Shown here piece by piece: positions 8,414 to 24,147 of a stretch of DNA of 64,000 bases. Below the pieces are notes generated by a model. The model was not told where the DNA came from, did not search any database, and saw only the letters and a program-made list of their open reading frames with translations. The stretch covers positions 434,001 through 498,000 of the forward strand of contig NZ_CANLZZ010000004.1 in the NCBI RefSeq assembly GCF_947495725.1. Reading direction: 5' to 3'. Positions within the stretch are counted from its first letter, which is position 1. The number at the start of each line of letters is the position of its first letter. The DNA is from an uncultured Lutibacter sp. (GTDB lineage Bacteria; Bacteroidota; Bacteroidia; Flavobacteriales; Flavobacteriaceae). Position numbers and translations under genes: made by a program.

Positions 8414-10960
8414 TCAATTAATCTCTACTTTTAATTTATTTGAAGAAATATTATTACTTATAACTTCAATTTCTACTGATCCTTTAGATTTATTTGATTG
8501 AAGAATTAAAATGGCTTTTCCGTTATGCGTTACAATTTTATTAGATTTATGAGGTTGCACATTCATTTCCCAACCATTATCAACTCCTAAATTTTTAACG
8601 TCTCCAGAAATTTTAAATTCAATTTCTTGATCTTTATCAACAACAAGGTTTCCTTCATCATCTAGTAATTTTGCAGTAATAATTGTCACATCGTATCCAT
8701 CTGAATCTAATTCAGTTTGGGTCGCTTCAATCACTATATTTGAAACATTTGAAGTCGTATTTAGTTCATATTCTTCAACTTCTACTCCGTTGTTGTAACC
8801 AACAACTTTTAATTCTCCAGCGGTATATGGAACCAACCATTTAATAATATTATCTGTTTCGCTAAAATCAGCTAATTTTTGTTTTCCTAATGAAGTTCCA
8901 TTTAAAAACAACTCAGCTTCCTCACAATTGGTATAAGTTTGAACAATAATTTTCTCATTGTTATTGTACTTCCATTTTGAATTTGTTTTATACCACTCCC
9001 ATTTTCGTAACATTTTCCACACCGGAGCAGGTGTATATTGCATTTCATACTTCCAACCATCTTTTTCGGAAAAAGAAAACTCTGATTCACTTGCTGGGGT
9101 AGTAACCATATAAACTTTTGGTTCAGTTATCCATAGACATTCAAAAAAATGACCTCTTGGTGTTTTGAAACCTGCATAATCAAAAAATGAAATATTTAAC
9201 CCTTTTCTTGGCCAAGGACCCGCTTCACCTAAATAAGCAAAACCTGTCCAAGTAAAGATTCCTGCAACAAAATCACGCTCATTAATACTTTTCCATTCAT
9301 TATAATCTCCCCAGTTTTCAGAACCTAAAATTTTTAAATCTGGATATTCTTTATGTGCAGCATCATAATCTGCAGCTCGATAATTATAACCAAACACATC
9401 TACAGCCGTTCCATAACCACTTGCCATTCCAATAGAAGGTAATACACTTCCAGCTGTAACCGGACGCGATAAATCAACTTCTTTTACCCAAGTAACTAAT
9501 TGTTTAGCCGTAGTTGCTAATGGATCATTGCCATCTATATTCTTATCAAAAGCCTCTTTTACTAATTTTTCATCATAAATTGGAACATTTACATAACCTT
9601 GCGCGCCTGTTTTTCCATTTACATCATTATATGTTTTTGAGTAGTGAGGAAATGTCCATTCGATCTCATTACCAATACTCCACATAATTACAGAAGGATG
9701 ATTAAAATCTCTTAGAACCAAATCTTTCAAATCTCTTTCTGCCCATTCTTTAAAATATACTGGGTATGATTTTGCAATTCCACCTTTTGCAGCGTTATCT
9801 CCTAAATAGTTTTTACTTTTTTCTTTTGGCACATACCATTCATCAAAAGCTTCTGCCATTACAAGTATTCCTTTTTCATCACAAACTTCCATTAGTTCTG
9901 TAGAATGAGGATTGTGTGACATTCTAACCGCATTTACACCTATAGATTGCAATTTATCTATTCTATATTCCCAAATACCTTTCGGAACAGCTGTTCCAAC
10001 TGCACCTGCATCGTGATGTAAGTTTACTCCTTTTATTTTTAAATTTTCACCGTTTAAAAAGAATCCATTATTTGCATCAAATCTAAACGTTCTAATTCCA
10101 AATTTTTCAGTTGTAGCATCTATCAATTTTTCATTCTGAAATACTTCTACATTTAAAGAATACATATTTGGAGATTGAACTCCCCATAATTTTGGATTGT
10201 TCACTTTAATAGTTGTTATATTTGAAAGCGAATTATTTAACTCTGCAATTGATTCACCAACTTTTAAACCATTATTATCTATAATAGCATATTTTAAAGT
10301 AACATTTTCTAAAGATTCATTTTTGCTATTTTTTAATTTTGAAGTAATTGAAACTTCAGCAAATTCTTTAGAAACTTTTGGCGTAGTAATTTTAACTCCC
10401 CACTGTGCAATATGTAATGGAGATGTTTTTATTAATTGCACTTTTCTGTATATACCAGATCCGGTGTACCACCTAGAATCCGCATAAGCCGTTCTATCAA
10501 CTTTTACAGCTATAACATTGTCTTTACCATCAAAATTTAAATAGTTGGTTAAATTATATGAAAACGAACTATATCCATTTGGTCTTTCACCCAATAAATG
10601 TCCATTAATCCAAACTTTAGAATTGTTATAAACACCATCAAACAAAATACTAAATAATTTGTTTTTATCTTTTGAAGTTAGCTTAAAATTCTTTCTATAC
10701 CAACCTATTCCACCTTGAACAAAACCAGTACTAGCAGCAGTATTTTCTTTGCTATAACCCAGTTCAATACTCCAATCGTGTGGAACATTTAGTTTTTTCC
10801 AATCGGCATCATCAAAATCAATAGTTGACGCTTTATTATTATTAATTAGTTTAAATTTCCAATCGTTATTAAAATCTTCAACTATTCTTGACTTGTTGGC
10901 TTCTTGACTACAAGAAGTTAACACAAGAAAAGTCATTAATACGTAAACAAGGTTTTTCAT
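8414..10960 (-). CDS. GH2 beta-galactosidase-like lipoprotein
   Basis: Exported lipoprotein of 848 residues; signal MKNLVYVLMTFLVLTSC with lipobox Cys. Domains in order: jelly roll (KVWINGHLLGERPNGYSSF), Ig-like, TIM barrel, then Bacteroidota-type extra beta domains (DUF4982-like and an invasin/Ig-like tail). Acid/base Glu in MWSIGNE near residue 427; nucleophile Glu probably in GSENWG near residue 548. NGYSSF and WYTGSGIYR are typical of the beta-galactosidase/beta-glucuronidase branch. Last gene of the run led by P450 and ADH, 32 bases after an esterase gene. It probably removes a beta-galactosyl-type residue, perhaps one carrying or exposed by a methyl group; that is inference. Confidence 0.85.
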   Translation of the reverse strand: MKNLVYVLMTFLVLTSCSQEANKSRIVEDFNNDWKFKLINNNKASTIDFDDADWKKLNVPHDWSIELGYSKENTAASTGFVQGGIGWYRKNFKLTSKDKNKLFSILFDGVYNNSKVWINGHLLGERPNGYSSFSYNLTNYLNFDGKDNVIAVKVDRTAYADSRWYTGSGIYRKVQLIKTSPLHIAQWGVKITTPKVSKEFAEVSITSKLKNSKNESLENVTLKYAIIDNNGLKVGESIAELNNSLSNITTIKVNNPKLWGVQSPNMYSLNVEVFQNEKLIDATTEKFGIRTFRFDANNGFFLNGENLKIKGVNLHHDAGAVGTAVPKGIWEYRIDKLQSIGVNAVRMSHNPHSTELMEVCDEKGILVMAEAFDEWYVPKEKSKNYLGDNAAKGGIAKSYPVYFKEWAERDLKDLVLRDFNHPSVIMWSIGNEIEWTFPHYSKTYNDVNGKTGAQGYVNVPIYDEKLVKEAFDKNIDGNDPLATTAKQLVTWVKEVDLSRPVTAGSVLPSIGMASGYGTAVDVFGYNYRAADYDAAHKEYPDLKILGSENWGDYNEWKSINERDFVAGIFTWTGFAYLGEAGPWPRKGLNISFFDYAGFKTPRGHFFECLWITEPKVYMVTTPASESEFSFSEKDGWKYEMQYTPAPVWKMLRKWEWYKTNSKWKYNNNEKIIVQTYTNCEEAELFLNGTSLGKQKLADFSETDNIIKWLVPYTAGELKVVGYNNGVEVEEYELNTTSNVSNIVIEATQTELDSDGYDVTIITAKLLDDEGNLVVDKDQEIEFKISGDVKNLGVDNGWEMNVQPHKSNKIVTHNGKAILILQSNKSKGSVEIEVISNNISSNKLKVEIN

Positions 10961-10992
10961 TTATTTGGTTTTAAAGAAGGTAGTTATTTATT

Positions 10993-11793
10993 TTACTTAA
11001 TTTTATTAAAAAACAATAAGGTGTCTTTTATATGTTCTGTCCAATAGCTCCATTCATGTTTCCCTTCAAATTCTTCATATTCATGTGGAATTTTTTCAGA
11101 AATTAGTTTTTTATGAAGTACTCTGTTATGCTCAATTAATAAATCATTCTTTCCACAATCAAATCTAAATGGTGGTAAATTGTTTTTATTTTGAAGCATT
11201 AATTCAAAAACATCTTCATTAATAGCATTTTCCTGCTTATAATTAGCTTCATTTTCCTCAACAAATAAGTGCATTTGATTTTTATTTGTTATTGAAGATA
11301 AACCAGAAAAAGCTTTATACTTTTCAGGGTATTTTGCACCTAAACGTAAAGCGCCATAACCTCCCATTGATAAACCAGAAATAAATAAATGAGACTGCTC
11401 ACTAACACAATCTATGTTTTCAATAACTGCTTGGTTTACATCATCTACAATCCAACTTTCAAAATTCTTATTATTGTGCGGTAAATAAGCCGATCCATCT
11501 CCCCATAAACCATCTGATGGCATTGCTAAAACCATTGGTTTTATAAGTCCTTCTTCAATCATTTTCAATGCCGTAAAATGAACACCAGCTTTGTGAGCCC
11601 AAATCCAAGCACTTCCATAAACACCGTGCAACAATGTTACAATTGGTAGGTTTTTTAACTCTTTTCCTGGAGGAACAAATACACATATATCTCCTCTTCC
11701 TTTTAAGTTTGAAGTTTTAATAGTTATAAAACGTAGATTATTACTCTCAAATTCAGGATTTGATATTTCAGTAGTTCTAAATTTAGATTTCAT
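10993..11793 (-). CDS. Esterase of the esterase-D/CE1-like alpha/beta hydrolase group
   Basis: Protein of 266 residues without a clear signal peptide. The nucleophile elbow is GLSMGG (Ser near residue 140); Asp in DCGKNDLL (near 212) and His in GKHEWSYW (near 247) complete a triad. The fold group includes S-formylglutathione hydrolase, acyltransferase-like esterases and sugar acetyl or feruloyl esterases. It is encoded 5 bases from the GH2 at 11799-14288. Two readings are possible: removal of an acyl group from the carbohydrate, or hydrolysis of a formyl-thiol formed downstream of formaldehyde made by the P450. Sequence alone does not decide; the lack of a signal peptide slightly favours cytosolic action. 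Confidence 0.7.
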   Translation of the reverse strand: MKSKFRTTEISNPEFESNNLRFITIKTSNLKGRGDICVFVPPGKELKNLPIVTLLHGVYGSAWIWAHKAGVHFTALKMIEEGLIKPMVLAMPSDGLWGDGSAYLPHNNKNFESWIVDDVNQAVIENIDCVSEQSHLFISGLSMGGYGALRLGAKYPEKYKAFSGLSSITNKNQMHLFVEENEANYKQENAINEDVFELMLQNKNNLPPFRFDCGKNDLLIEHNRVLHKKLISEKIPHEYEEFEGKHEWSYWTEHIKDTLLFFNKIK

Positions 11794-11798
11794 AACTA

Positions 11799-14288
11799 CT
11801 AATTTACAATTAATGAATTATTAGAGCCTTGCAATTTTTCTGAAGTGGCATTAATTTTAACTACTCCTTTTTTATTGGATTTAACAAAAATAACTGCTTG
11901 TCCATTAAATAGTTTTCTAATTGGCTTTGAAAGGTTTTGCATATTTGTTGGGTCTCCATTACCAGATGCTAAAAATTCTGCGGAACCACTAATTTCAATG
12001 TTCATGTTTTTATTGTAGTGCGGACATAAATTACCATCTTTATCAACTACAGAAATCACATAAACACCTACTTCACCATTGTTAATTGAATTTAATTCAG
12101 GTTCAATTTTAATTGAATGTGGATCACCTGCAGTAACTTTTGTAACCTCTCCAACTTTTTTCCCTTTCTTATTGTAAGCAACTATTTTTACTTCACCAGG
12201 TTCGTAAACTACATCTTTCCAAATAATTGCATAAGCATTCATTAAATCCCAATTACCTCCACCAGATGCTGGTTTAGAGAGAGTAGGGCTTTCGTACGAA
12301 TGTTTTTTTAGTGGCTTTTTTGTCTGAATTCCATAACTTTTACCGTTAACAAATAATTCAGCTTTTTCATAAGAAGTATAACAAACTATAGGAAATGATT
12401 TTACATTTAATTTAGGCCAAGTCCAGTGTGGAAAAAAGTGTAATACATCTTTATCTTTTTTCCATTGTGTTTGATACAAGTAAAATTTATCTTTTTCTAA
12501 TCCCACAAAATCAACAGGTGCAAAATAAGAACTTCTTGATTTAGCATCGTGATATGGTGATGGTTCACCTAAATAATCGTAACCAGTCCAAACAAACTCT
12601 CCATAAACAGTAATGTTTTTTTCTAGTGAAGCAAACTCTTTAAATGCAGGATAACCCCAAGGAACATTTGTTGTTTCAAAATTCCCTGGATATCCATCTG
12701 AATAAACTTTAGTATTTAAAGAATTTCCTCTTGGATTATGAATCGTATCAAATACAACAGGAAATTTATAACTGTTTCTAACACTCACAGCTCCACCTGT
12801 TTCACTTGCATAAAATTTTAAGTTTGGATATTCTTTTCTAATTACATTATAAATTCCAGGCTTATAATTAAACCCTGCAACATCTACTGTTTCGGCCAAA
12901 CCATTTTTAAAAGCACCAGCAGGATTGTTAAATCCAGCAGTTGTAGCTCTGGTTGTATCGACACTTTTAACAATATCATTTAAAAAATTACAAATTTTTG
13001 GGTCTCCTTTATACTGCTCCATAATTTCGTTACCAATACTCCACATAATAACACTTGGATGGTTACGATCTCTAATAATCATATCGGTCAAATCTGTTTT
13101 TGCCCACTTATCAAAATGTACAGAATATCCATTCATTACTTTTCCTACTTGCCATTCATCAAAAGCTTCATCAATGGCTAAAAGTCCCATTTCATCACAA
13201 ATATCCAACGCTTCTGGTGCAGGTGGATTATGAGAAAAACGAATTGCATTAACCCCCATTTCTTTCATTTTTTTCATTTGACGTACAAATAACTCTTTAT
13301 GAAATGCTGCTCCAACAGGACCTAAATCGTGATGCATATTTACACCTTTGAATCGAATTTTCTCATTATTTAAATAAAAACCATCTACTTCAAATCTAAT
13401 TGACCTTATTCCAAAAGTTGTTGAATATGAATTTATTTCTTTTCCTTCCTTTAATATTGAAGTTTTTAATGTGTATAATTGAGGTGTTTTTAATCCCCAC
13501 AACATTGGTTTTTTAACTTCAAAATCTTCAGTAATTTTAAGTTCATTATTAATAGTAACTTCTTTAATTTGTTTAGCTACTGAAACACCTTTAGGGTTTA
13601 TAATTTCATTAACTACCGTACATTCTCCTTCACCTAAAACATCTAAATCTAAATGAACTTGAGCTGTTTTTTTGGTAATTTTTGGTGTTGTAATAAAAGT
13701 TCCCCAAGTTTTTACATGCGTGTTATTTGTTTTAATTACAGATACTTTACGATACAAACCTGCACCTGGATACCAGCGCGACTGACTGTTGAAATTTTCT
13801 AATCTTACTGCAATTGTATTTTCACCTGGCTTTAAAAACTTTGTGATATCAAAATAGAAAGAGATATAACCAAATGGTCGTTCTCCAACATAATTTCCAT
13901 TTACATATACCTTTGAATTACTCATTGCTCCATCAAAAAGCAATTGAACTTTTTGCTGTAAATCATTTTCTGAAACAGCATAATTTGTTCTATACCATCC
14001 AACTCCAACAAAAGGTAAAGCGCCAGTTCTTCCTGCTCTATACCTTGGTTTCTTTTCTCCATCTTGAACAACCATTGTTAATTGAACGTCATGAGCAAAA
14101 TTAAAATCTCCTTTCGCTGCCCAATCATGTGGAACTGTTACAGATTCCCAACTAGAATCATCAAAATCTTCTTTAAATGCATTACCATAATCGTAATTAG
14201 AAAATTTCCAATTCTTTAATAAGTCAATTTCTTGAGCAGAAAGACTTATTGTTACAAGTGTTATTAACAAACAAATTAATTGTTTCAT
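11799..14288 (-). CDS. Secreted GH2 beta-galactosidase-like enzyme
   Basis: 829 residues with signal peptide MKQLICLLITLVTISLSAQ. GH2 domains in order: jelly roll (KVYVNGNYVGERPFGYISF), Ig-like, TIM barrel, then C-terminal beta domains. Acid/base Glu in MWSIGNEIME near residue 418, nucleophile Glu in ASETGG near residue 494. The SRWYPGAGLYR motif supports the beta-galactosidase-type branch. It begins 24 bases after the alcohol dehydrogenase gene, so it belongs to the P450 transcript. That tie resembles porphyran loci where demethylation of 6-O-methyl-galactose is coupled to galactosidases; the exact substrate remains inferred. Confidence 0.85.
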   Translation of the reverse strand: MKQLICLLITLVTISLSAQEIDLLKNWKFSNYDYGNAFKEDFDDSSWESVTVPHDWAAKGDFNFAHDVQLTMVVQDGEKKPRYRAGRTGALPFVGVGWYRTNYAVSENDLQQKVQLLFDGAMSNSKVYVNGNYVGERPFGYISFYFDITKFLKPGENTIAVRLENFNSQSRWYPGAGLYRKVSVIKTNNTHVKTWGTFITTPKITKKTAQVHLDLDVLGEGECTVVNEIINPKGVSVAKQIKEVTINNELKITEDFEVKKPMLWGLKTPQLYTLKTSILKEGKEINSYSTTFGIRSIRFEVDGFYLNNEKIRFKGVNMHHDLGPVGAAFHKELFVRQMKKMKEMGVNAIRFSHNPPAPEALDICDEMGLLAIDEAFDEWQVGKVMNGYSVHFDKWAKTDLTDMIIRDRNHPSVIMWSIGNEIMEQYKGDPKICNFLNDIVKSVDTTRATTAGFNNPAGAFKNGLAETVDVAGFNYKPGIYNVIRKEYPNLKFYASETGGAVSVRNSYKFPVVFDTIHNPRGNSLNTKVYSDGYPGNFETTNVPWGYPAFKEFASLEKNITVYGEFVWTGYDYLGEPSPYHDAKSRSSYFAPVDFVGLEKDKFYLYQTQWKKDKDVLHFFPHWTWPKLNVKSFPIVCYTSYEKAELFVNGKSYGIQTKKPLKKHSYESPTLSKPASGGGNWDLMNAYAIIWKDVVYEPGEVKIVAYNKKGKKVGEVTKVTAGDPHSIKIEPELNSINNGEVGVYVISVVDKDGNLCPHYNKNMNIEISGSAEFLASGNGDPTNMQNLSKPIRKLFNGQAVIFVKSNKKGVVKINATSEKLQGSNNSLIVN

Positions 14289-14312
14289 TATAATATTTAT
14301 TGAGATTTTTTT

Positions 14313-15431
14313 TTATTCAAATACAATTACACCTTTGGCATTTTTACCAGAGAGCATATCTTTAAAAGCTTGTTCTAATTCTTCAATTGGATAGGTTCTG
14401 GTAATCATTTCATCTAACATAATTTCTCCTTTTTTGTAATGATTTACAATTTTTGGGAAATCGGTTTGTGGATTGCATTTACCATACAACGGATTGATGT
14501 ATTTTTTATCCCATTCAAACAAAGCCATATCAATTAAAACTTCTTGTTCAATGCCACTTACTTGAACTGCTGTACCAGCATTTCTTACCATTGCTAAAGG
14601 AGCAGCTCCCAATTCAGGAATTGCTGTACATTCAAAGGCATAATCGGCACCTCTTCCATTTGTCATTTCTTTCACTTTTTCGGCAGCTTTCAACAATCCT
14701 TTGTCATTTTTATCGGCTAAAATAGTATGCGTTGCACCAAATTCTACAGCCATATCTAAACGTTGCTGATTAACATCAATTGCTATAATTTTTGAAGCTT
14801 TAGAAACTTTAATTCCTTGAATAACATTTAATCCAACTCCACCTGTTCCTAAAACAACTGCAGATGAATTTTCTTCAACTTGAGCAGTATTTACTGCCGA
14901 CCCAAAACCTGTCATAACTCCACAACTAATAATACTTGCTGAACTATGATTCATATCTTGAATAGGATTTTTAACAACCGCCGATTCCTTAACTAACGTA
15001 TATTCTGAAATAGTTCCAATATTAAACGAACGTTCAATTGCATTACCATTCCAAGTTGTTCCTTCTTTATGAGCGTGACCTGGCGTGTAACCATTTGCTC
15101 CTGCAACTACTGGAGAATTATTTTCACAAATATGCTCGTTTTCGTGTTTGCATTGAAAACATTCACCACAAGGTGTTGCCCAATTTAAAATTACTGCATC
15201 TCCAACTTTTACACTTGTTACATTTTTTCCTATGGCTTCAACAATTCCAGACCCTTCGTGTCCCATAACAATTGGCTTTCCCCAATTTAAAGAATCGTGG
15301 TCTGTATGACATAAACTAGCAGCTTTAATTTTAACTAAAACCTCATCACTTTTAGGATTTTCAACTTTTATATTTTCTATTGAAAAAGAACCATCGCCTT
15401 TTGCAATAGCTGCTTTACATTGTAAACTCAT
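14313..15431 (-). CDS. Zinc-dependent alcohol dehydrogenase of the P450 cluster
   Basis: Medium-chain, zinc-containing dehydrogenase of 372 residues, class-III-like. Catalytic zinc ligands: Cys41 (SLCHTD), His58 (GHEG) and the Cys of SCGVMTGFG; structural zinc ligands Cys88, 91, 94 and 102. The Rossmann motif is GTGGVGLNVIQG. The gene is 5 bases downstream of the ferredoxin reductase gene. ADHs of this kind accompany the P450 system for 6-O-methyl-galactose in flavobacteria, where they were proposed to handle formaldehyde or another product of demethylation; the true substrate there is not certain to me. No separate glutathione-pathway gene is visible except possibly the esterase at 10993. 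Confidence 0.85.
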   Translation of the reverse strand: MSLQCKAAIAKGDGSFSIENIKVENPKSDEVLVKIKAASLCHTDHDSLNWGKPIVMGHEGSGIVEAIGKNVTSVKVGDAVILNWATPCGECFQCKHENEHICENNSPVVAGANGYTPGHAHKEGTTWNGNAIERSFNIGTISEYTLVKESAVVKNPIQDMNHSSASIISCGVMTGFGSAVNTAQVEENSSAVVLGTGGVGLNVIQGIKVSKASKIIAIDVNQQRLDMAVEFGATHTILADKNDKGLLKAAEKVKEMTNGRGADYAFECTAIPELGAAPLAMVRNAGTAVQVSGIEQEVLIDMALFEWDKKYINPLYGKCNPQTDFPKIVNHYKKGEIMLDEMITRTYPIEELEQAFKDMLSGKNAKGVIVFE

Positions 15432-15436
15432 ATTTT

Positions 15437-16693
15437 TTAATCTTTTAAGAAACTTGTTGGCTTAATTGGAATAGAAACATCTTTTAATTTCAACTTATCA
15501 ATTTCTTGTTTTCCTTTTATAAATCGACCACCTAACACATAGGCTTTCCCATTGTTAACTGCATCTACAGCTAATAATTCGTTATCTTTAAAATACCAAA
15601 CAGATTGGCATTTATCATTGTCTAATTCTATACGTTGAATAACTTCATTATAACCTTTTGAAAGTCCAACCATTTGTAATTTCACATCATATTGATCTGA
15701 CCAAAACCAAGGAATAGCGTTATACTCAACTTGATTACCACATATTGCTAAAGCAGCTACTTTTGCTTGATCAACGGCATTTTGAACAGATTCTAAGCGA
15801 ATAAAACGATTGTAATGTGGGTTGAAATGATACGTACAATCTCCAATAGCATAAATATTAGCATCACTTGTTTTAGCTGAAGAATCAACTTTAATTCCGT
15901 TTTCAATCTCAACACCGGCCTTTTCAGCTAAATCAATATTTACTTTAATTCCAACACCAACAACAATTAAATCTGCTTTATATGAAGTATTATCATCGCA
16001 AACAACTTCATTTATTCCTTCGGAAGTTTTTATTGAAACAACATTTTTATTTGGTAACACCTCAACACCATTTTCTTGATGTAGTTTACTAAAAAAAGTT
16101 GACATTTCAGGAGCTGTAACGCGTTCTAAAACACGTTCTTCTCTTTCCAAAACCACAACTTTAGCACCTATTTTTTTTAATGAAGCCGCAGTTTCCAAAC
16201 CTATATATCCACCACCAATAATAACTACTCTTTTTTCTACTGAATTTTTAATAGCTTTTTGAATACTAACCGTGTCAGCAAAAGTTCTCATAGGAAACAA
16301 ATTACTCGCTGTTTTTATTCCATTAATTGGAGGAATAAAAGGTCTTGCTCCTGTTGCTAAAACTAATTTGTCGTACAATTGAATTTCCCCAGAAGATAAG
16401 GTTATTGTTTTTTCTTCATTATTTATTTCTGAAACAGTTTCACCTAACTTTAAAGTTATATTTTCTGATGCGTAATTTTGTTCAGGAAACAATAAATCTA
16501 ATTCTGAATTATTTTCAGCAGATAAATATGCTTTTGATAATGGAGGCCTGTGATAAGGCATTTCCGGATCACTATCATACAAGATTATTTCCCCTTCCCA
16601 ACCTTCTCTTCTTAATGAAAAAGCAACGTTTACACCGGCGTGACTAGCACCAATGACAACGCAAATTTTATTTGAAGTTGTATTTTCTGACAT
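15437..16693 (-). CDS. Ferredoxin reductase (FAD, putidaredoxin-reductase type)
   Basis: 418-residue flavoprotein with two nucleotide-binding motifs: FAD site at the N terminus (VVIGASHAGVNVAF) and NAD(P)H site in the middle (VVIIGGGYIGLETAASL), followed by the ATG-type segment LVLATGARPFIPP and the second FAD motif IYAIGDCT. This matches reductases that pass electrons from NAD(P)H to a [2Fe-2S] ferredoxin serving a class I bacterial P450. It is 6 bases downstream of exactly such a ferredoxin, and the P450 precedes that. No CxxxxC redox disulfide of thioredoxin-reductase kind is seen. Confidence 0.9.
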   Translation of the reverse strand: MSENTTSNKICVVIGASHAGVNVAFSLRREGWEGEIILYDSDPEMPYHRPPLSKAYLSAENNSELDLLFPEQNYASENITLKLGETVSEINNEEKTITLSSGEIQLYDKLVLATGARPFIPPINGIKTASNLFPMRTFADTVSIQKAIKNSVEKRVVIIGGGYIGLETAASLKKIGAKVVVLEREERVLERVTAPEMSTFFSKLHQENGVEVLPNKNVVSIKTSEGINEVVCDDNTSYKADLIVVGVGIKVNIDLAEKAGVEIENGIKVDSSAKTSDANIYAIGDCTYHFNPHYNRFIRLESVQNAVDQAKVAALAICGNQVEYNAIPWFWSDQYDVKLQMVGLSKGYNEVIQRIELDNDKCQSVWYFKDNELLAVDAVNNGKAYVLGGRFIKGKQEIDKLKLKDVSIPIKPTSFLKD

Positions 16694-16699
16694 TATATT

Positions 16700-17008
16700 T
16701 TAGTTCGCAACTTTTAAAACTACACCATCTAGATCTTCAGTAACTTTCATTTGACAAGATAAACGACTGTGGTCACTTACTTTTTCATCAAATTCTAACA
16801 TATCGCTTTCCATCGCATTTGGAGCTCCCGTTTTAGCCCAATCTGAAGGTTCTACATGTACATGACAAGTTGCACATGAACAAACTCCTCCACAGTTACC
16901 ATCAATTCCTTTAATTTTATTTTGCACAGCCAATTCCATTACATTTCCTGAATTTCCTTCTACTGTTATTGATTCGTTATCTCTTGTTATAAATGTTATT
17001 TTTGCCAT
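16700..17008 (-). CDS. [2Fe-2S] ferredoxin (putidaredoxin/adrenodoxin type)
   Basis: Ferredoxin of 102 residues. Cluster ligands are Cys39, Cys45, Cys48 and Cys85 (C-x5-C-x2-C-x36-C), with an additional Cys43 inside the loop. The length and the LSCQM ending fit vertebrate-type/putidaredoxin ferredoxins that reduce P450s. It lies between the P450 and its reductase genes, giving a complete three-part electron chain. A second use, reducing the corrinoid activation system encoded just upstream, is conceivable but only inferred from proximity. Confidence 0.92.
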   Translation of the reverse strand: MAKITFITRDNESITVEGNSGNVMELAVQNKIKGIDGNCGGVCSCATCHVHVEPSDWAKTGAPNAMESDMLEFDEKVSDHSRLSCQMKVTEDLDGVVLKVAN

Positions 17009-17054
17009 TTTAATTTATTTTTATAGTTGTAGTAATAGTTTATTCTTTTTTTAT

Positions 17055-18206
17055 TTAATTAAATTTCACATTAATACTGTCAAAACCAACTTTACGTTTA
17101 AATTCTCCCAAAGTTTCGATATTTTCCTTTGCATCAATAATCTCAATTGATTTCACTTTCTCTATTAAGGTATTAATTAATACTTTTAATATTTGACGAG
17201 CATGAGTTGCACCTAAACAGTTATGCGTTCCAAAACCAAATGCAACATGTGGATTCATTTTCCTATCTAAAACCACCTCATTTGGGTTTTCGAAAACAGT
17301 AGCATCTCTATTTGCAGAAGCCCAATTTAAAGAAATTCTAGAATCAGCTTTTATTGCGTGTTCGCAAACCTGTGTATCTTCTGTAGCAACACGCCCCATT
17401 TGCGTTAATGGTGAAAAATATCTAATTAATTCTTCTATTGCAAAATTGATTAATTCGGGTTCATTTTTTAATCTTTCTAATGATTTTGGGTGCTCAGCAA
17501 AATACGCAATAGAGTTTGTTACTGCGTTTATTACCGTGTCTCTTCCACCTGCAAAAGTTAACATCAATACTCCTTTTATTTCTTCCTTTGTTAATTTTTT
17601 ACCATTAACGTCTGATGCTAACAATACAGAATAGAAATCTTGGCCTGGATTTTTTTCGCTTTCAGCAATTTTGTTATCTATATAATCATATAATATATTT
17701 GCTTTATCGGCATCTAATGCTGAATCTTTACTTCTAAATACATGAGTTCCCCAAGAAATCCAAGTTTCTGATTCCTCGAACGGAACATTAAATAACAATG
17801 TAAGTGCCCTAGACTGTAAAACCAATGAAAACTCTTCAATCGCTTCTACTGAACTCTTAGCTAAAGCTTCATCCACAACTCCATCAATAATACATTTTAA
17901 ACCTGCCTCATAATTTGCTTCTAACGGACGTTTAAACCATTTTTCAACAACTGCTCTATAATCACCATGCATTGGTGGGTCTAATTCAAAAGGAATTTGA
18001 CGAATATCTCTAATATTAACTTCTGAAGGAATTACAATACGTCCTGGTTCAGCTCCCGATTGAAAGGTTTTCCAATTATGTGCACACCTACGAACATCTT
18101 TATGACGCAATGCCATAACAACAGGATCATTTTGATCGTCCATTTCACCAAAACCTTTTTCTAGTCTTGCTTTTTCAAACGGATCTGAAATTTCACTTTT
18201 CTTCAT
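17055..18206 (-). CDS. Cytochrome P450, likely O-demethylase of methylated sugar (CYP236A-like)
   Basis: 383-residue soluble P450. Haem motif FGFGTHNCLG at 323-332 with ligand Cys330; I-helix AGGRDT at 219-224 carrying the acid-alcohol pair; ExxR as EELIR at 258-262. Together with the adjacent ferredoxin, reductase and zinc ADH it forms the gene set that, in porphyran-degrading Zobellia and Formosa, oxidatively demethylates 6-O-methyl-D-galactose to galactose and formaldehyde. The sequence looks close to that group from memory (segments around QSGAEPGRIVIPSEVNIRD), but I cannot align it. It has its own 163-bp upstream promoter region. Another methylated sugar as substrate is possible. Confidence 0.85.
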   Translation of the reverse strand: MKKSEISDPFEKARLEKGFGEMDDQNDPVVMALRHKDVRRCAHNWKTFQSGAEPGRIVIPSEVNIRDIRQIPFELDPPMHGDYRAVVEKWFKRPLEANYEAGLKCIIDGVVDEALAKSSVEAIEEFSLVLQSRALTLLFNVPFEESETWISWGTHVFRSKDSALDADKANILYDYIDNKIAESEKNPGQDFYSVLLASDVNGKKLTKEEIKGVLMLTFAGGRDTVINAVTNSIAYFAEHPKSLERLKNEPELINFAIEELIRYFSPLTQMGRVATEDTQVCEHAIKADSRISLNWASANRDATVFENPNEVVLDRKMNPHVAFGFGTHNCLGATHARQILKVLINTLIEKVKSIEIIDAKENIETLGEFKRKVGFDSINVKFN

Positions 18207-18299
18207 ACTATTTCTTCTTTATTTGGTATACTAAATTTATCTTTTCAAAAATGAAGATTCTAAGTATAAAAATGATAAACTTTATTAGCTATAAAAGTG

Positions 18300-18349
18300 C
18301 CTATTTTGACTGAATTACCAAAATAACGATGATTTTAAGTCAAAATAGG
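18300..18349. promoter_or_regulatory. Inverted-repeat operator candidate in the P450 promoter
   Basis: CCTATTTTGACT at 18300-18311 is repeated in perfect inverted form at 18338-18349, with 26 bases between. It lies 94-143 bases upstream of the P450 start, in the 163-bp gap after the MetH-activation-domain gene. The 3' copy read on the minus strand (AATACCTATTTTGACTT) resembles AATACCTTATTTTGATAT at 23203-23220 in the promoter between the methyltransferase operon and its AraC-type regulator. Common control by that regulator is inferred. Confidence 0.5.
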
Positions 18350-18369
18350 TATTAAAGACTAATTCGTCT

Positions 18370-19074
18370 TTAATGTTTTACGTACATTTTTTTAGCCCGA
18401 TAAACGCACGTATTATTTTTACAAGTATCACAAATGTAACCAAGGTATTTTACGTTTTTTCCAATACCTACAATTCCACTTACAGATTTTACTGGACTCA
18501 TTAATGAAGTTTCACTTAAACTAACATTGCAGAAGCCTTTTGGAAAGAATGAAAATAGGTTTTGTTGATCTTTAACCAACCAATCGCAATATCCTGGACT
18601 GTATCTATTTGTTAGTGATAAGTTGTTTAAACTTACCATTGTTTTTAATTTTTCATAAATAAGATCCATTGCACCTTCAACCAATAATGAGCCTGTTGAA
18701 TCTACTACATAACTCATTACAATATCTCCTTCAGCATTAAACTTTTTACTCAATTTTTCGACTTCATAGCCTGCAGTGCACGTAAACAAAGCTGCAAATT
18801 CAGCATTTCTTAAAAATGAAGTAATCATTCTTCCTGTTTCAAATGTTTTATCTTCAACTTTAATAAACCCTTCTTTAGCTGAAAAATCTGTTACAGGTTT
18901 TAGGGTAAATCCACCTTCAATATTTTTATTATTTGAAAGTAATTCTATAGCAGCATCAATCATACTATTAAATGGTTCTTCAGGAACTGGTCCTAAACCC
19001 ATAAACGATGAAATTTCTTCTTTTTCAAGTTCAATTTCTGAAAAATCTATCTTATATGTATATGTGCCTTTCAC
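18370..19074 (-). CDS. Vitamin B12-dependent methionine synthase activation-domain protein
   Basis: 234 residues resembling the MetH reactivation domain as a free-standing protein. The signature RYSPGYCDW at 157-165 corresponds to the SAM-binding RxxPGYGxxPxx-like motif of MetH, with Cys where Gly is usual. The C terminus has a Cys cluster (Cys215, 218, 223, then Arg226) common in stand-alone members near corrinoid methyltransferases. It probably helps to re-reduce cob(II)alamin on the neighbouring corrinoid protein. It is 5 bases downstream of the COG0523 GTPase gene. No [2Fe-2S] N-terminal domain of RamA/RACE kind is present, so the electron donor is unknown. Confidence 0.8.
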   Translation of the reverse strand: MKGTYTYKIDFSEIELEKEEISSFMGLGPVPEEPFNSMIDAAIELLSNNKNIEGGFTLKPVTDFSAKEGFIKVEDKTFETGRMITSFLRNAEFAALFTCTAGYEVEKLSKKFNAEGDIVMSYVVDSTGSLLVEGAMDLIYEKLKTMVSLNNLSLTNRYSPGYCDWLVKDQQNLFSFFPKGFCNVSLSETSLMSPVKSVSGIVGIGKNVKYLGYICDTCKNNTCVYRAKKMYVKH

Positions 19075-19079
19075 TATAT

Positions 19080-19973
19080 TTATTTTGTTTTTTGAAATAA
19101 CCCTCGTAACGTTCTTAAACTCATTTGCTCACCAAAGGCTATTATTTCACAACTTCCGGTATAATTTTCTAATGGAATTATTTCGTAATTATTATAGGTT
19201 AAATGAAACAATTTAAACTCGTTAACTCCTACCCTAACAAAACCTTTTGCTCGGATACTTATGCTACTTAATTCTTTTAAAAATACGTTTAATTTTTCTT
19301 CTGAAATAATATCAGTTGTTCTATACACAGCTGTTTTTATTTCTTCAGGTCGCGTATCTTCGGAAGTTATGTTTGGTATTTCGTTTACCTGATTTAACTC
19401 CGTTGATTTTACATTGCAAAATTGATGTTGTTCAATTACTGCAAACGGATTTATGTCTTTTACTTTTTCAATAACCTTTTCAATTTGGTTTTTATCAACC
19501 AAATCTGCTTTATTCAAAATAATTTTATCAGCCACTCTAACTTGATGTTTTGCTCTTTGTACAAAAGCAGCACTTTTATTAAAGTTTAAAGCATCAACTA
19601 CACACCAAGCCCCAGCATAACGGACCTTATTGCTTATCTCGTCTTTATTTAATAATTCACAAATTGAAATTGGATCTGAAATTCCAGATGCTTCTAAATA
19701 AATTATTTCTGGATTGTATTGTTCAATTAAGGTTGAAATGTTTTCAATAAAATTACTTAACAAGCAAACACAAAAAACCGAGCCGTTATTTATTTCTACA
19801 AGTTTAAAATTATCTTCAGAAAGTTTTAATTCTTTACCATCTACACCACTTGGCGCAAACTCGTTTTGTATAACTGCAATTCTTTTTCCTTTATGTAAAG
19901 AAAGTAGATTTTTAAGCAGCGTTGTTTTTCCGCTGCCTAAAAATCCACTAATAAGAATTAAGTCTGTTATCAT
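19080..19973 (-). CDS. COG0523 (CobW-like) P-loop GTPase of the methyltransferase cluster
   Basis: 297-residue G3E-family GTPase. Walker A GFLGSGKT at residues 10-17, switch segment ViEN-like (LVEINNG) and base-recognition NKAD. The metal-binding CxCC motif of the family is reduced to Cys68-Val-Cys70-Leu. A shorter C-terminal CobW domain follows. Members act as metallochaperones or corrinoid-handling accessory proteins. Its place between the methyltransferase genes and the MetH-activation-domain gene suggests a part in zinc or cobalamin loading or in protecting the corrinoid protein, much as G3E GTPases serve other B12 enzymes. That role is inference. Confidence 0.8.
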   Translation of the reverse strand: MITDLILISGFLGSGKTTLLKNLLSLHKGKRIAVIQNEFAPSGVDGKELKLSEDNFKLVEINNGSVFCVCLLSNFIENISTLIEQYNPEIIYLEASGISDPISICELLNKDEISNKVRYAGAWCVVDALNFNKSAAFVQRAKHQVRVADKIILNKADLVDKNQIEKVIEKVKDINPFAVIEQHQFCNVKSTELNQVNEIPNITSEDTRPEEIKTAVYRTTDIISEEKLNVFLKELSSISIRAKGFVRVGVNEFKLFHLTYNNYEIIPLENYTGSCEIIAFGEQMSLRTLRGLFQKTK

Positions 19974-19995
19974 TTTTTATTGATTATCAGTATAA

Positions 19996-20026
19996 TGAGA
20001 TTCTTCTCTATTGTTCAGAATGACAA
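19996..20026. repeat. Fragment of flavobacterial interspersed repeat
   Basis: The bases TGAGATTCTTC followed by GTTCAGAATGAC resemble a palindromic interspersed element seen between genes in many flavobacteria (from memory). It lies in the 91-bp gap between the UroD-thioredoxin gene and the GTPase gene, the only sizeable gap in that operon. Confidence 0.4.
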
Positions 20027-20064
20027 ACGTGAGATTACTACTCATTATTCGCAATAACTTTTAT

Positions 20065-21438
20065 TTAATTAACAACAACTTTAGTATCTAAATGCTTTTG
20101 AATACATTTTACCAATTCAGTTTTTGGAGGAATAATTGAAATAAATTCAATTTCTCCATCAATACAAATAGTTGGTAGGTTTCTAACACCTAAACTCATC
20201 ATCATTTGAATACCTTCTTGGTTTTTAATTTTATGCTCTACATATTCAATATTATCAGCTCCAATTTCTTCAACAGCCAATTCAACTGCTTGCATCATAT
20301 ATTGGCAAGGTGCACAACCTTCAGAATCTAAAGTAATTACATCTATTTTTACTTTATCGTTTGTAAAGTAATTTTCTAAATCTAACAACTCTACATCTTT
20401 TGCTGTTTGCCCTTTTGTTCTTAACACATCTTGCTGATATTCATCGTGAACAATTTCTGCAATAGCTTCTAAATTTTCAGGAGGAGTTGCCATTGGTAAA
20501 TCGCAACCAGGAGCTAAAATAAATCCTTTTTTACCACCAATATCCATACATTCTATTGCTTCGAACTTACAATCTTCTGGAGTACCAATTAGTAAAACAG
20601 AAGTCAGCTTCATATTTCCACCAAAACTGATTTCGTATTTATCACATTGTTCTTTTAAGAAATCTAAAGGAATATTTTCATCAATCGAAATATTGTCTGG
20701 TTCACATTTACACATCTCTTCAATGTTTTGTGTAGCATTTCCGCATACAAAGAAAGAACTCAAAGCTCCACATTCTCTAATATGACTGAAAACTTCTTTA
20801 CAATACGGAGAAACAAACATTTCAAAAGACATTGGATCTATTTGACTAACCATTGGATCAACCACTGCAACTACATCACAACCAGCTTCAATATAATAAT
20901 CAGACATTGCTTTACCAACTTTGGTGCAATAATCCATTACTTTACCTACGTACTCTGGGTCTTCAAATAATTTCATAAAAATATCTGTACCCATTAAATG
21001 CAATGCCAATGTAAACGGTCCAGTAATTAATCCGTATAAAGCAATATCTGGATGCGCTTCTTTTATTTTTGAAGTAGCATTCATTACAGTTGCAATTCTA
21101 CCTTTACAACGACAAGGAACTTTTAAATCTTCCAGTTTTAAACTTCCATCTGCTAACGGATGAGAAACTACAGCCGGCGGATTATCTTCTGACCATTTTA
21201 ATTCACAACCCAACACTTCAGCTTCAATTTGAAGGTCAAACGTTACCGGAATACCATCTGGGTTGTATTTTTTTATTGCTTCCTCCGCACCATCAATAAT
21301 ATGTTGTTCAGATTTAAAATAAGTGGTAGCATTTAAGCCTAACAAATGTCCTGCGTGCGCACCAACAAATGGTACCCAAGGCACACGTTCCACTTCCTGA
21401 CGTTTCATAGCTGCTTTTACTAGTTCTAAACCTTTCAT
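20065..21438 (-). CDS. UroD/MtaA-family methyltransferase fused to a thioredoxin-like domain
   Basis: 457 residues. Residues 1-340 are a UroD-fold domain of the MtaA/CmuA group; residues about 362-450 are a thioredoxin-like domain with Cys375-Ala-Pro-Cys378 and the cis-Pro of NLPT at 422. In the zinc site, the usual H-x-C is Phe230-Val-Cys232, while the last ligand Cys312 (APGCDLP) is kept. It most likely moves the methyl group from the methylated corrinoid protein to an acceptor (tetrahydrofolate or a thiol). The ATG shares one base with the stop of the corrinoid protein gene. The attached redox domain and the missing His are unusual. It is not haem-pathway HemE. Confidence 0.8.
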   Translation of the reverse strand: MKGLELVKAAMKRQEVERVPWVPFVGAHAGHLLGLNATTYFKSEQHIIDGAEEAIKKYNPDGIPVTFDLQIEAEVLGCELKWSEDNPPAVVSHPLADGSLKLEDLKVPCRCKGRIATVMNATSKIKEAHPDIALYGLITGPFTLALHLMGTDIFMKLFEDPEYVGKVMDYCTKVGKAMSDYYIEAGCDVVAVVDPMVSQIDPMSFEMFVSPYCKEVFSHIRECGALSSFFVCGNATQNIEEMCKCEPDNISIDENIPLDFLKEQCDKYEISFGGNMKLTSVLLIGTPEDCKFEAIECMDIGGKKGFILAPGCDLPMATPPENLEAIAEIVHDEYQQDVLRTKGQTAKDVELLDLENYFTNDKVKIDVITLDSEGCAPCQYMMQAVELAVEEIGADNIEYVEHKIKNQEGIQMMMSLGVRNLPTICIDGEIEFISIIPPKTELVKCIQKHLDTKVVVN

Positions 21439-22112
21439 TATGCTGAGATTTTAAGTTTATTCATAAATTCAACAACACCTTGTGGGTCTGCTGAAAAATT
21501 ATCTGCTCCAATTTGGTCGCAGAATTCTTGTGTAATAGGTGCTCCACCAATAGTTACTTTTTGGTTTGGATGCACTGCTTTTATTTCTTTTACAATGTTT
21601 TCCATACTAGCCATTGTTGTAGTTAACAATGAAGAAAGACCGATAATTGCATCAGGGAAATCATTAATTGTATCAATGAATTTTTTTGCAGGAACATCAG
21701 TTCCTAAATCAATTACTTCGTAACCGTTTCCTTCAACAATCATAGAAACTAGATTTTTACCAATATCGTGTAAATCACCAGCGACTGTACCAATAATAAA
21801 TACTCCTTTTTTATCTGTATTTCCTTCAGCAAACAATGGTTTTAAATGTTCCATTGCAGTATTCATTGCTTTTGCAGACATTAAAACTTGAGGAACAAAT
21901 ACTTTGTTTTCTCTAAATTTAACACCTACTTTTTCCATACCAAGTATTAAGCCTTTTTCCAATACTTCACGTGCACTTGCACCTTGTTCTAAGGCTTGTA
22001 CTGTTAATTCATCAGCACCATCTTGATCTTTCATATTTGGTGGGTAAGGTGAAACTTTGTTAATTTTACCAAACTCTACACAATCCGATATTTTGTTAAA
22101 TAAATCTTCCAT
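21438..22112 (-). CDS. Corrinoid (cobalamin-binding) methyl-carrier protein
   Basis: 224 residues in the two-domain form of MtaC/MtbC-type proteins: helical cap (about 1-95) and Rossmann-like B12 domain (about 100-224). The lower cobalt ligand is His115 in D113-L-H-D-I-G118; GLSSLLTTT and TIGGAPIT are the other two B12-binding segments. It carries the methyl group between the two UroD-family enzymes encoded on either side. Each junction overlaps by a single base, indicating tight translational coupling. Residues 1-30 are a little longer than in many homologues. Confidence 0.92.
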   Translation of the reverse strand: MEDLFNKISDCVEFGKINKVSPYPPNMKDQDGADELTVQALEQGASAREVLEKGLILGMEKVGVKFRENKVFVPQVLMSAKAMNTAMEHLKPLFAEGNTDKKGVFIIGTVAGDLHDIGKNLVSMIVEGNGYEVIDLGTDVPAKKFIDTINDFPDAIIGLSSLLTTTMASMENIVKEIKAVHPNQKVTIGGAPITQEFCDQIGADNFSADPQGVVEFMNKLKISA

Positions 22113-23131
22113 TACGCTAGTTCTTCTTTTTTAAGTTGTGCTTTTGCAACTTCAATAAATGTTAATATGTTTTCTAATGTAGTATCGCTTTCAACTGAAT
22201 GAGAAGGAGAGAAAATATAACCTCCTTTTTTACCCATTTCTATAAGCTTTTCAGATTCTTCTCTAACTTCTTCAGGGGTTCCAAACGGCAATGTTTTTTG
22301 CATTGATAAACCTCCGTGGAAACAAAGTTTCCCTAAATAATTATTATGAATTTCGTGAACATCCATTACTTCTGGTTGAAAAGGATTGAAACAGTTTAAA
22401 CCTGCATCAATTAAAGACGGAAATAACTCATCCACATCTCCACAAGAGTGAATCATTACCTTTTTACCTGCATCTTTAACACGTTTATACATTCGTTTAA
22501 TTTGTGGATACATAAACTCGTGCCATAAATCGGCTCCCATAATTAAACCATGTTGTTGTCCCCAGTCATCTCCAAAATATACGGCATCAATATCGTATTC
22601 TAACGCTTTGTCAATTTGAGCAATGTTGTAATCTGCAATTTTTTCGAATAAAGCGTGTACAAAGTCAGGGTACATATAAAAGTCCATCAATAAGTTTTCC
22701 ATACCTCTCATTGACCATGCTCTTTCATATAAAGAAAATCCTATTTGAAACACTCTAAATAAATCTGGTTTTTTCTCAATTTCAGATTCTATATTATCAA
22801 AAAATCTAGGATCGTGTGGATTAGGAAATTCTAAACCTTCAATTGAAGGTTCTTTAATAATATCCTCAATTGGCATTCCTATATCCTTATCAACTGATCG
22901 ATCCCAAACTACACCAAACACATCTTTAAAATGGTCTTTTTCGACCTCATCAAAAAAACCAATATCGCTACCTAAGTTTAAAATATGGTTTCCAAGAGTT
23001 ATATCTAAATCATCCGATTTAAAGTGTTCTTCTAACATTTCTTTTGGTTCTTTTGTAAATTTAAAGGACCAAGGCACATAAGGTGGTTTCTCGTGGTTTA
23101 GCACCATTTTTATAATCTCACGTTTTGTCAT
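22112..23131 (-). CDS. UroD-family corrinoid-dependent methyltransferase (substrate side)
   Basis: 339-residue UroD-fold protein, first gene of the methyltransferase operon. Zinc-ligand candidates are His228-Ser-Cys230 and His311 (SPSHSV), in place of the final Cys of Mta[12 protein letters not shown] at 185-195 is typical of this non-HemE branch. Proteins of this type, encoded next to a corrinoid protein, transfer a methyl group from a methoxy or other methylated substrate to cob(I)alamin. The setting among polysaccharide genes suggests an O-methyl sugar or the product of one as methyl donor, but no such enzyme is known to me, so this is inference. A methoxy-aromatic donor cannot be excluded. 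Confidence 0.8.
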
Positions 23132-23286: not shown

Positions 23287-24147
23287 TTGAAAGCACATTT
23301 TGAAAAAGTAGCCTCTTCATCCGACAGTTCGTTTAACGCATTTATCTATGAAGATAAAAATTTTGATGCTCCTTGGCATTTTCATCCAGAATATGAATTA
23401 ACATATATTGTCAAAGGTGAAGGAATTCGGTATGTAGGAAACAATGTTGAAAAATTTGAAGCAGGAGATTTTGTTTTAATTGGCTCTAACTTACCACACT
23501 GCTGGAAAGATTCTGTTCAAAATAATGGTATGGTTAAATCTATTGTATTTCAATGGAGTGATGACATATTAGGCGATAATTGGATTCAAAAAAATGAATT
23601 TAGGCATATAAGGTCGTTGCTAAAAAATGCAGCAAATGGTGTTTTGTTTAACCCAACTTTTTCCAAAAACATTGAGGTAAAGTTAAAAACAATAGTTACT
23701 AAAAACCCTTTAGAGAAGTTACTGAGTTTCATTCAATTACTAGAATACTTAAGTGGACTAAAGGATTATAAAACCCTTACCTCAACTGATTTTACACCAA
23801 GCTTAAATTTAAAAGCAAACAATCGAATTGATCGAGTTTACGATTTTGTTCAAGAAAATTATGCTAAAAAGATTAAACTAAAAGAAGTTTCAGATTTAGT
23901 ATCAATGGGTGATGAAGCATTTTGTAGATTTTTCAAAAAATCATTAAATAAATCATTTTTTACTTATGTAAATGAATATCGAATAAATCTTGCTTGTAAA
24001 GCTTTAATTGAAACTAATAAACAAGTAAGTCAAATTGCTTATGATTGCGGATACGAAAGTTTACCATTTTTTTATAGACAGTTTCAAAAATTTATGGACT
24101 GCTCTCCTTTGGTTTTTAAAAAAATGTATCTGAAGGTAAAGTCTTAA
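23287..24147 (+). CDS. AraC-family regulator, divergent from methyltransferase operon
   Basis: 286 residues: N-terminal cupin sensor (APWHFHPEYELTYIVKGEG, about residues 28-100, with His residues able to bind ligand) and C-terminal AraC double helix-turn-helix (about 187-285, ending in the canonical QIAYDCGYESLPFFYRQFQKF). The start is TTG; no ATG lies close enough to keep the cupin whole. It is transcribed away from the methyltransferase operon across a 155-bp gap with repeated motifs, so it most likely controls that operon and, given the shared motif, the P450 operon. The inducer is probably a sugar, possibly methylated. Confidence 0.85.
   Translation: MKAHFEKVASSSDSSFNAFIYEDKNFDAPWHFHPEYELTYIVKGEGIRYVGNNVEKFEAGDFVLIGSNLPHCWKDSVQNNGMVKSIVFQWSDDILGDNWIQKNEFRHIRSLLKNAANGVLFNPTFSKNIEVKLKTIVTKNPLEKLLSFIQLLEYLSGLKDYKTLTSTDFTPSLNLKANNRIDRVYDFVQENYAKKIKLKEVSDLVSMGDEAFCRFFKKSLNKSFFTYVNEYRINLACKALIETNKQVSQIAYDCGYESLPFFYRQFQKFMDCSPLVFKKMYLKVKS

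Follow-up and report, generated by a model that had tools for sequence, protein, structure and literature searches.

In marine bacteria, the described removal of the 6-O-methyl group from galactose is carried out by a cytochrome P450 that consumes oxygen and releases toxic formaldehyde (PMC10033563), and as of 2025 the anaerobic demethylation of 6-O-methyl-galactose had not been elucidated (PMC12316285; these two papers, like PMC10418091, PMC8630106 and PMC12478193 below, are cited for parts of their text). Is there a second route that needs no oxygen? The question is raised by a 64,000-nucleotide stretch of DNA from an uncultured Lutibacter sp. (contig NZ_CANLZZ010000004.1, positions 434,001 to 498,000; the whole of this stretch is called the window), in which five genes of a corrinoid methyltransferase system, here termed the cassette, lie directly before an operon for a P450 of the 6-O-methyl-D-galactose type. 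The interest of the locus comes from that stated open question together with the clean evidence for a cassette. From genomic context and protein sequence we favor, with somewhat better than even confidence, the reading that the first cassette protein, UroD1, moves the methyl group of an O-methyl sugar (6-O-methyl-D-galactose being the first candidate) to a corrinoid protein (CP), and that a second methyltransferase, UroD2-Trx, passes it on to a thiol.

Gene content of the corrinoid cassette

The coordinates of the 12 open reading frames of the cassette and the P450 operon were re-checked; all lie on the minus strand, on which the order of transcription is UroD1, CP, UroD2-Trx, CobW, ACT, P450, ferredoxin, ferredoxin reductase, alcohol dehydrogenase (ADH), GH2, esterase, and GH2. 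UroD1 (22112..23131; 339 aa) matches the URO-D family (PF01208) with 98 bits, carries HSCGD and SPSH at the metal-site positions, and is the predicted donor-side, substrate-specific methyltransferase. CP (21438..22112; 224 aa) combines PF02310 (B12-binding) with PF02607 (B12-binding_2) and displays the DxHxxG motif as GDLHDIG, a motif present in all 46 CPs compared, that of the window included; among curated models it resembles MtgC-type and MetH B12 domains. UroD2-Trx (20065..21438; 457 aa) is an MtaA-like protein with 200 bits to PF01208 and, at its C-terminus, a PF13192 (Thioredoxin_3) match of 29 bits with a CAPC motif, and is predicted to be the acceptor-side methyltransferase. The UroD1/CP and CP/UroD2-Trx junctions are both single-base TAATG overlaps. 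These three genes are followed by CobW (19080..19973; 297 aa; PF02492, 136 bits), a COG0523 GTPase and predicted metallochaperone, and by ACT (18370..19074; 234 aa), a stand-alone MetH-type activation domain and predicted reactivase (PF02965, Met_synt_B12, 33.5 bits against a cut-off of 25), whose R[YF]SPGYC motif is shared by all 22 ACT relatives compared, the window protein among them. The cassette occupies the space between the P450 operon and a divergent AraC-type regulator gene (23287..24147, plus strand; PF12833 and PF07883), and a regulator of this kind is similarly placed in the other flavobacterial cassette loci.

An earlier, sequence-only reading of this stretch had described the gene content, the common strand, and the single-base overlaps, and these are borne out, as all coordinates are valid open reading frames and Pfam backs each name; the details that we refine are the GTG start and stand-alone nature of the activation domain and the addition of the divergent AraC gene. 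The trio of UroD1, CP, and UroD2-Trx occurs as a single copy in its own genome (4.24 Mb), where, apart from the trio, only the B12 part of methionine synthase is CP-like. An Rfam scan of the window at gathering thresholds returned no match, hence no recognized B12 riboswitch. Identity with HemE was ruled out for both UroDs, which score 68.9 and 33.1 bits against a curated hemE cut-off of 302.95.

The P450 itself (17055..18206) carries the p450 Pfam domain and matches PDB entry 6g5o over 383 of 383 residues (638 bits, E 3e-191), the next chain reaching 159 bits; the PDB title of 6g5o reads only "Cytochrome P450", and we take it to be the structure of the 6-O-methyl-D-galactose enzyme. Downstream on the same strand follow a 2Fe-2S ferredoxin (16700..17008; PF00111, Fer2), the predicted redox partner of the P450, a ferredoxin reductase (15437..16693; PF07992, Pyr_redox_2, and PF14759, Reductase_C), a zinc-type ADH (14313..15431; PF08240 and PF00107), a GH2 glycosidase (11799..14288; PF02836), an esterase (10993..11793; PF00756), and a further GH2 glycosidase (8414..10960; PF02836).

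Linkage of the cassette to P450 operons

Is the junction of cassette and P450 operon peculiar to the window? Among 349 genomes of the family, 25 carry the P450 and two, the window's own genome included, carry UroD2-Trx, used here as the marker of the cassette. Both UroD2-Trx carriers are among the P450 carriers (chance 0.005), and in both the cassette directly adjoins the P450 operon, a co-occurrence for which the sequence-only reading had suggested a search. Two more genomes of the window's own genus in this sample carry neither UroD2-Trx nor the P450. Across all flavobacterial loci examined (the window and L015 to L018), the cassette lies beside the P450 operon in five of five; it should be noted that G134 of the family sample is apparently the same assembly as L016. 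Neighborhoods of 19.9 kb each were taken from 20 of the 23 cassette-free P450 carriers (all except G011, G180, and G227), and the cassette was found in none of these 20. In 15 of them, a divergent AraC gene stands just before an operon ordered either P450, ferredoxin, reductase, ADH, esterase or ADH, esterase, P450, ferredoxin, reductase (some with an internal GH2); in the other five (L112, L117, L119, L125, and L126) the AraC gene is otherwise oriented, elsewhere, or absent, and L126 is also without ADH and esterase beside the P450.

The claim of the sequence-only reading that the cassette is tied to a sugar-demethylation operon gains support from the fact that the AraC/operon junction is shared by two P450 operon architectures. 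The Mariniflexile maritimum locus (L016, which overlaps L011 from G134) is collinear with a cassette-free locus of genome G061 (L118), with identities of 90% for ADH, 87% for the esterase, 85% for the P450, 88% for ferredoxin, 80% for the reductase, 63% for AraC, and 92, 95, and 85% for three further neighbors, the first and last of which are sulfatases in L016; what L016 has in addition is the five-gene cassette, located between AraC and ADH. The other operon order is that of L. oricola, L. citreus, L. agarilyticus, and the window, in all of which AraC is separated from the P450 by the cassette; G246 (L111) has this Lutibacter-type order, too, but no cassette. Between L016 and the L. oricola locus (L015), the cassette proteins are 93% (UroD1), 87% (CP), 82% (UroD2-Trx), 72% (CobW), and 74% (ACT) identical, and the operon proteins 68% (P450), 61% (esterase), 58% (ferredoxin), and 85% (ADH). 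In a 28-row P450 tree, the L016 P450 pairs with that of G061 (support 100/99), and the Lutibacter P450s form a separate clade with two cassette-free ones (100/99), such that, going by well-supported branches, the cassette label must have changed at least twice; a quick tree of ADH likewise requires two changes or more. Most simply read, these sequences indicate that the cassette arrived at this junction on two occasions, which speaks for an inducer and a pathway in common. It may instead be that the linkage is ancestral and was later lost, or that the cassette stayed in place and the P450 genes next to it were replaced.

A separate observation concerns the window and L. oricola, its closest named relative among the scanned genomes, in which the UroD2-Trx proteins are identical (window 20065-21438, L015:10001-11374; 97% at the DNA level) and CobW is 96% identical in DNA, with lower DNA identity elsewhere (UroD1 90%, AraC 80%, and P450 77%). 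The unevenness of these values points to recent recombination within the cassette as a possible event.

A modular core with exchangeable donor enzymes

A scan of a GTDB-based genome collection yielded 72 loci, 68 of which, the four flavobacterial ones included, encode a UroD2-Trx of at least 50% identity. Within 6 kb of UroD2-Trx, CobW was found in 57 of these 68 loci, CP in 45, and a BLAST-detectable ACT in 21; of the 11 loci without CobW, nine have less than 1.5 kb of contig remaining downstream. The same 6 kb contain a PF02574-like gene of 293 aa in 21 loci, a UroD1-like gene in 17, and an MtaB-like gene in three. Pfam confirmed one PF02574 member and one MtaB member of these clustered genes, plus three PF02574 proteins among pooled neighbors.

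The gene that fills the donor slot differs among loci. UroD1 orthologues occupy it in the window, L015 to L019, and L029. L020 and L064 share the order RhaT, UroD, L-rhamnose mutarotase, CP, UroD2-Trx, CobW, ACT, with a donor UroD that is 27% identical to UroD1; L020 has a GH29 gene between CP and UroD2-Trx, and three sulfatases surround the L064 cassette; eight L064 genes were scanned with Pfam separately. A layout like that of L020 and L064 is found by BLAST and open reading frame size in L069, where the mutarotase is recognized by size alone, and L037 and L077 have genes that fall into one cluster with the mutarotase of L020. A UroD of 25% identity holds the slot in L012/L040. In L023, a Bacteroidales metagenome-assembled genome (MAG), an MtaB-type methanol methyltransferase lies between CP and UroD2-Trx, with RACo downstream (8213-9589 and 12682-14199). 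CP and UroD2-Trx remain constant while the donor enzymes change, which suggests that UroD2-Trx works on the acceptor and UroD1 on the substrate. We conclude that the five genes make up a corrinoid methyltransferase cassette that is modular and can be transferred, and that in the flavobacterial loci it was recruited beside an AraC gene and a P450 operon.

In a further variant (L024, L031, L032, L041, and similar loci), CP and UroD2-Trx are accompanied by CobW, by a flavoprotein resembling fumarate reductase together with an Fe-S protein, by a gene similar to GntP permeases, and in most cases by a PF02574 homocysteine methyltransferase, as identified by Pfam in L032 and by clustering in the others. 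The pooled neighbor scan covered 81 of 137 proteins from 11 of 15 donor-bearing loci (L061, L064, L069, L072, and some other genes being outside it), and the first 25 of the 137 families include three PF02574 proteins, two sulfatases, two TonB plugs, one MFS_2, and one BCCT protein. In a phylum-wide sample of 395 genomes, UroD2-Trx was found in six at 1e-30, of which the window's own genome and G677 (59%) are near and the other four are at 26-28%.

Metal sites and proposed route of the methyl group

Can the two UroDs be assigned to the two ends of a methyl transfer? Read with the Cys rule for the metal sites of UroD-superfamily methyltransferases (PMC10418091), UroD1 has the pattern HSC...H, in which one Cys of a thiol-type site is absent (roles being assigned by sequence motif), and UroD2-Trx has FxC...C, in which both Cys are kept and the His is absent. 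The candidate metal ligands are thus H228, C230, and H311 in UroD1 and C232 and C312 in UroD2-Trx. The FxC...APGC pattern is kept in all readable rows of a 69-row alignment of UroD2-Trx, the best solved match of which is MtaA (4ay7; TM 0.89 by target). UroD2-Trx scores below the curated cut-offs of MtaA/MtbA, with 150.4 (cut-off 400) and 140.1 (600), and of the mtaA_cmuA subfamily, with 166.8 (235.4). By sequence, UroD1 found no match among solved structures, neither as a single sequence at 0.001 nor as a seven-row profile at 0.01. Its predicted model has the UroD fold without a full His-Cys-Cys site, and in fold comparison MtaA and UroD enzymes are nearly tied (Z 29.1 and 28.4), such that the fold does not tell the function of UroD1.

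The sequence-only reading had left tetrahydrofolate and thiols side by side as acceptors. Of these, the thiol has become the likelier and tetrahydrofolate the less likely, because the genome contains no MtrH (PF02007) over the cut-off and UroD2-Trx keeps both Cys; the one weak MtrH match (20 bits, cut-off 22.8) lies inside a split methionine synthase gene. The acceptor is thus probably a thiol, perhaps homocysteine. A search of the genome for a RACo/Ram activase (PF14574) gave no match, and the PF02965 protein is present instead, which suggests that ACT stands in for an ATP-driven activase by a MetH-type reactivation, as would suit an aerobe. The genome further encodes a split methionine synthase (one PF02574 gene and one gene with pterin, B12, and activation domains) side by side with MTHFR.

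Taken together, fold, metal-site residues, and genome context are consistent with the following route. ACT would bring the CP corrinoid back to the Co(I) state, for which it probably draws on S-adenosylmethionine and on an electron donor of low potential; the ferredoxin of the operon may serve as that donor. UroD1 would then transfer the O-methyl group of the sugar onto Co(I)-CP, freeing the sugar hydroxyl with neither consumption of oxygen nor production of formaldehyde, and UroD2-Trx would pass the methyl group to a thiol, for which homocysteine or another small thiol is our guess. CobW, given its near-constant pairing with UroD2-Trx, may deliver metal to that enzyme, and the methyl carbon would end in methionine and one-carbon metabolism instead of formaldehyde. 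The wider proposition is evenly poised in our judgment: that this is a B12-dependent sugar-ether demethylase in which UroD1 demethylates 6-O-methyl-D-galactose without oxygen, and that UroD2-Trx is a new methyl-acceptor enzyme serving many exchangeable donor enzymes (including some for methylated deoxysugars) in Bacteroidota and, by MAG titles, Planctomycetota.

Substrate of UroD1 and alternative explanations

The remainder of the polysaccharide locus (24999..42857, minus strand) encodes a GH88-type protein, two GH29, a GH2, a GH3, a Por-tail protein, SusD, SusC, and a CBM9 protein, and most of its genes are matched by BLAST in L. citreus; the window as a whole contains five GH2-type and two GH29 genes. 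In L. oricola, a sulfatase and an Agarase_CBM protein lie about 15 kb from the cassette, one on each side. The latter, an Agarase_CBM/GH42-like protein (L145:3473-5575) about 15 kb past the cassette, would fit a substrate of the agar/porphyran type. Our guess is that the cassette handles the O-methyl sugars of an algal galactan of the porphyran/agar type. Elsewhere in the window, a RhaT-type sugar permease gene (4794-5822) is found near the P450 operon, along with aldehyde dehydrogenase (ALDH) and enoyl-CoA-hydratase-family genes, on the opposite strand; RhaT also occurs in other cassette loci.

Do UroD1 orthologues occur where there is no P450? When ten genomes were searched with the window P450, matches at E 1e-20 came from the four flavobacterial genomes with a cassette and from none of those of L019, L029, L070, L020, L064, and L069. 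UroD1 orthologues are nonetheless encoded in L019 (77%) and L029 (62%). The L019 orthologue is surrounded by a GH2 (41% identical to that of the window), beta-helix and pectate-lyase-like proteins, and, about 13 kb off, a sulfatase. That of L029 has GH26, an MFS sugar transporter, and SusCD close by and GH5-like, GH130, CBM9, and GH2 genes within about 22 kb; this set looks mannan-directed, and UroD1 relatives may thus not all share one sugar. A 45% relative in L070 adjoins a sulfatase. In the phylum-wide sample, UroD1 was detected at 1e-60 in one of 395 genomes, its own, and therefore its substrate cannot be read from many contexts. The sequence-only reading held that a sugar role would fall if homologues of the trio consistently lay away from carbohydrate genes. 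For UroD1 this is not what was found, since its orthologues lie in carbohydrate loci of two genomes without a match to the window P450; for the wider core it is found in part, with MtaB, PF02574-type, and BCCT neighbors. A methoxy-aromatic donor was rejected: the annotated neighbors of the cassettes in the window, L015 to L019, and L029 (many outside neighbors being unannotated) include no recognized aromatic-degradation gene. As a side observation, the mannan-like region of L029, L143, and L144 contains, besides the 62% UroD1 orthologue, another donor UroD, and methyl-mannose is a possible donor there.

The alternative that survives best, unlikely as we judge it, is that UroD1 acts on some other O-methyl sugar of this polysaccharide, one that differs in the position of the methyl group or in the residue that bears it (a methylated 6-deoxy sugar, for instance), the P450 alone handling 6-O-methyl-D-galactose and the two systems being complementary. 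The two GH29 genes and the RhaT-type transporter of the window point in this direction, as do the related cassettes accompanied by RhaT, rhamnose mutarotase, GH29, and sulfatases, and the orthologue in the mannan-like region of L029. However, the deoxysugar cassettes have a different UroD (27% identical), and the cassette lies directly before the P450 operon in two architectures with the same kind of regulator, which suggests the same inducer. Moreover, GH29 and GH2 enzymes, acting after a sulfatase, degrade methylated porphyran oligosaccharides to galactose and 6-O-methyl-galactose (PMC12316285).

It is improbable that the cassette is an extra MetH-like system for methionine synthesis or methyl salvage that stands beside the P450 operon without a link in substrate. 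Such a role would account for the MetH-type activation domain, for the similarity of CP to MtgC-type and MetH B12 domains, and for the PF02574-like homocysteine methyltransferase gene that accompanies the core in 21 of the 68 loci, but the genome already has its split MetH with PF02574 and MTHFR neighbors, the donor genes change from one context to another around a constant core, and two placements at one junction would be unlikely without a link. Very improbable is a role in handling a one-carbon compound left over from the P450 reaction, either methanol or a methylated thiol derived from formaldehyde. Such a role might be suggested by the genomic partnership with an ADH and a formaldehyde-releasing P450 type and by the MtaB in the donor slot of a related cassette. 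Against it stand two genomes that encode a UroD1 orthologue but gave no match to the window P450, the fact that the methanol-type enzyme found is MtaB and not UroD1, and the published finding that neither detoxification nor dismutation of formaldehyde was detected for the ADH (PMC10033563).

Several observations weigh against transfer of a sugar methyl group by UroD1 to CP and onward to a thiol, which we still prefer. No sulfatase, GH16, or GH86 model matched in the 39 of 42 window open reading frames of at least 150 aa that were scanned; as a consequence, porphyran as the polymer is not established by the window itself, and our confidence in that transfer was lowered slightly. Neither UroD reaches a curated NCBIfam cut-off, and the metal-site His is absent from UroD2-Trx in 68 of 68 readable rows, which makes the thiol acceptor uncertain. 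L019 and L029 are possibly incomplete MAGs, such that the absence of the P450 from them is uncertain, and the mannan-like character of the L029 region (GH26, GH130) means that the donor there may be another methylated hexose. The linkage to the P450 is known from two genera only. The best P450 tree contains four label changes and clusters the cassette no better than chance (114 of 500 shuffles were as low), so losses may be mixed with gains, and support in the quick AraC tree is too weak to force two events. The wider core also serves other donors (MtaB, PF02574-type, and, in one neighbor set, a gene for a BCCT betaine transporter), and the mixed families of the pooled neighbors count against a purely carbohydrate role for it. 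Lastly, the evidence is genomic and sequence-based.

Comparison with known systems

The proposed system is a variant of corrinoid methyltransferase systems and involves no new principle. It shares its logic of substrate methyltransferase, corrinoid protein, second methyltransferase, and reactivase with the aromatic O-demethylases of acetogens and methoxydotrophic archaea (Vdm/Odm/Mtv and Mto), of which the phenolic OdmB/VdmB belong to the UroD superfamily (PMC10418091). Those systems take methoxy-aromatics, and Mto uses the MtrH-like MtoA and the ATP-dependent activase MtoD (PMC8630106), whereas the Lutibacter cassette is located in a carbohydrate locus, with UroD2-Trx in the place of MtrH and a MetH-type activation domain in that of RACo. 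Type 1 mlp clusters (Kountz and Balskus, PMC10418091) also combine several UroD-superfamily methyltransferases with a corrinoid protein and have no H4folate methyltransferase in the cluster. They differ in being reported from obligate anaerobes only, in their Ram/RACE activase, in their His-Cys-Cys sites (several Mlp1 excepted), and in a link to methyl-Se/S compounds (PMC10418091); the Lutibacter cassette has HxC...H in UroD1, FxC...C in UroD2-Trx, and no RACo. The cobalamin-dependent glycine-betaine system of Ruegeria sets a precedent, as here a marine bacterium that is aerobic demethylates with the help of B12. It too has exchangeable modules, but its donor is a quaternary amine, its partner module is pterin-binding, and the part of the paper cited mentions no UroD enzymes (PMC12478193). 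In a literature search of mainly open-access papers, no description of B12-dependent demethylation of sugars was found among the matches listed.

The closest comparison is with the P450 system itself. Oxidative demethylation of 6-O-methyl-D-galactose by a P450 was reportedly described by Reisky and colleagues in 2018. The operon downstream of the cassette holds the same set of P450, ferredoxin, reductase, ADH, esterase, and GH2 genes (the ADH also resembling that of the set) as described in Formosa, with a similar set in Zobellia and with formaldehyde released; the text of that paper makes no mention of corrinoid, cobalamin, or vitamin B12 (PMC10033563). Unlike the route proposed for the cassette, the P450 route needs oxygen and releases formaldehyde. 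The five named genes are a concrete candidate for oxygen-free methyl removal from algal sugars, with relatives that lack this P450 as places to look, and they suggest a route by which carbon could be saved in sediments and in algal aggregates low in oxygen. If the proposal is true, the cassette would represent the missing anaerobic demethylation of algal methyl sugars, present in Lutibacter beside the aerobic P450 route as a two-mode regulon.

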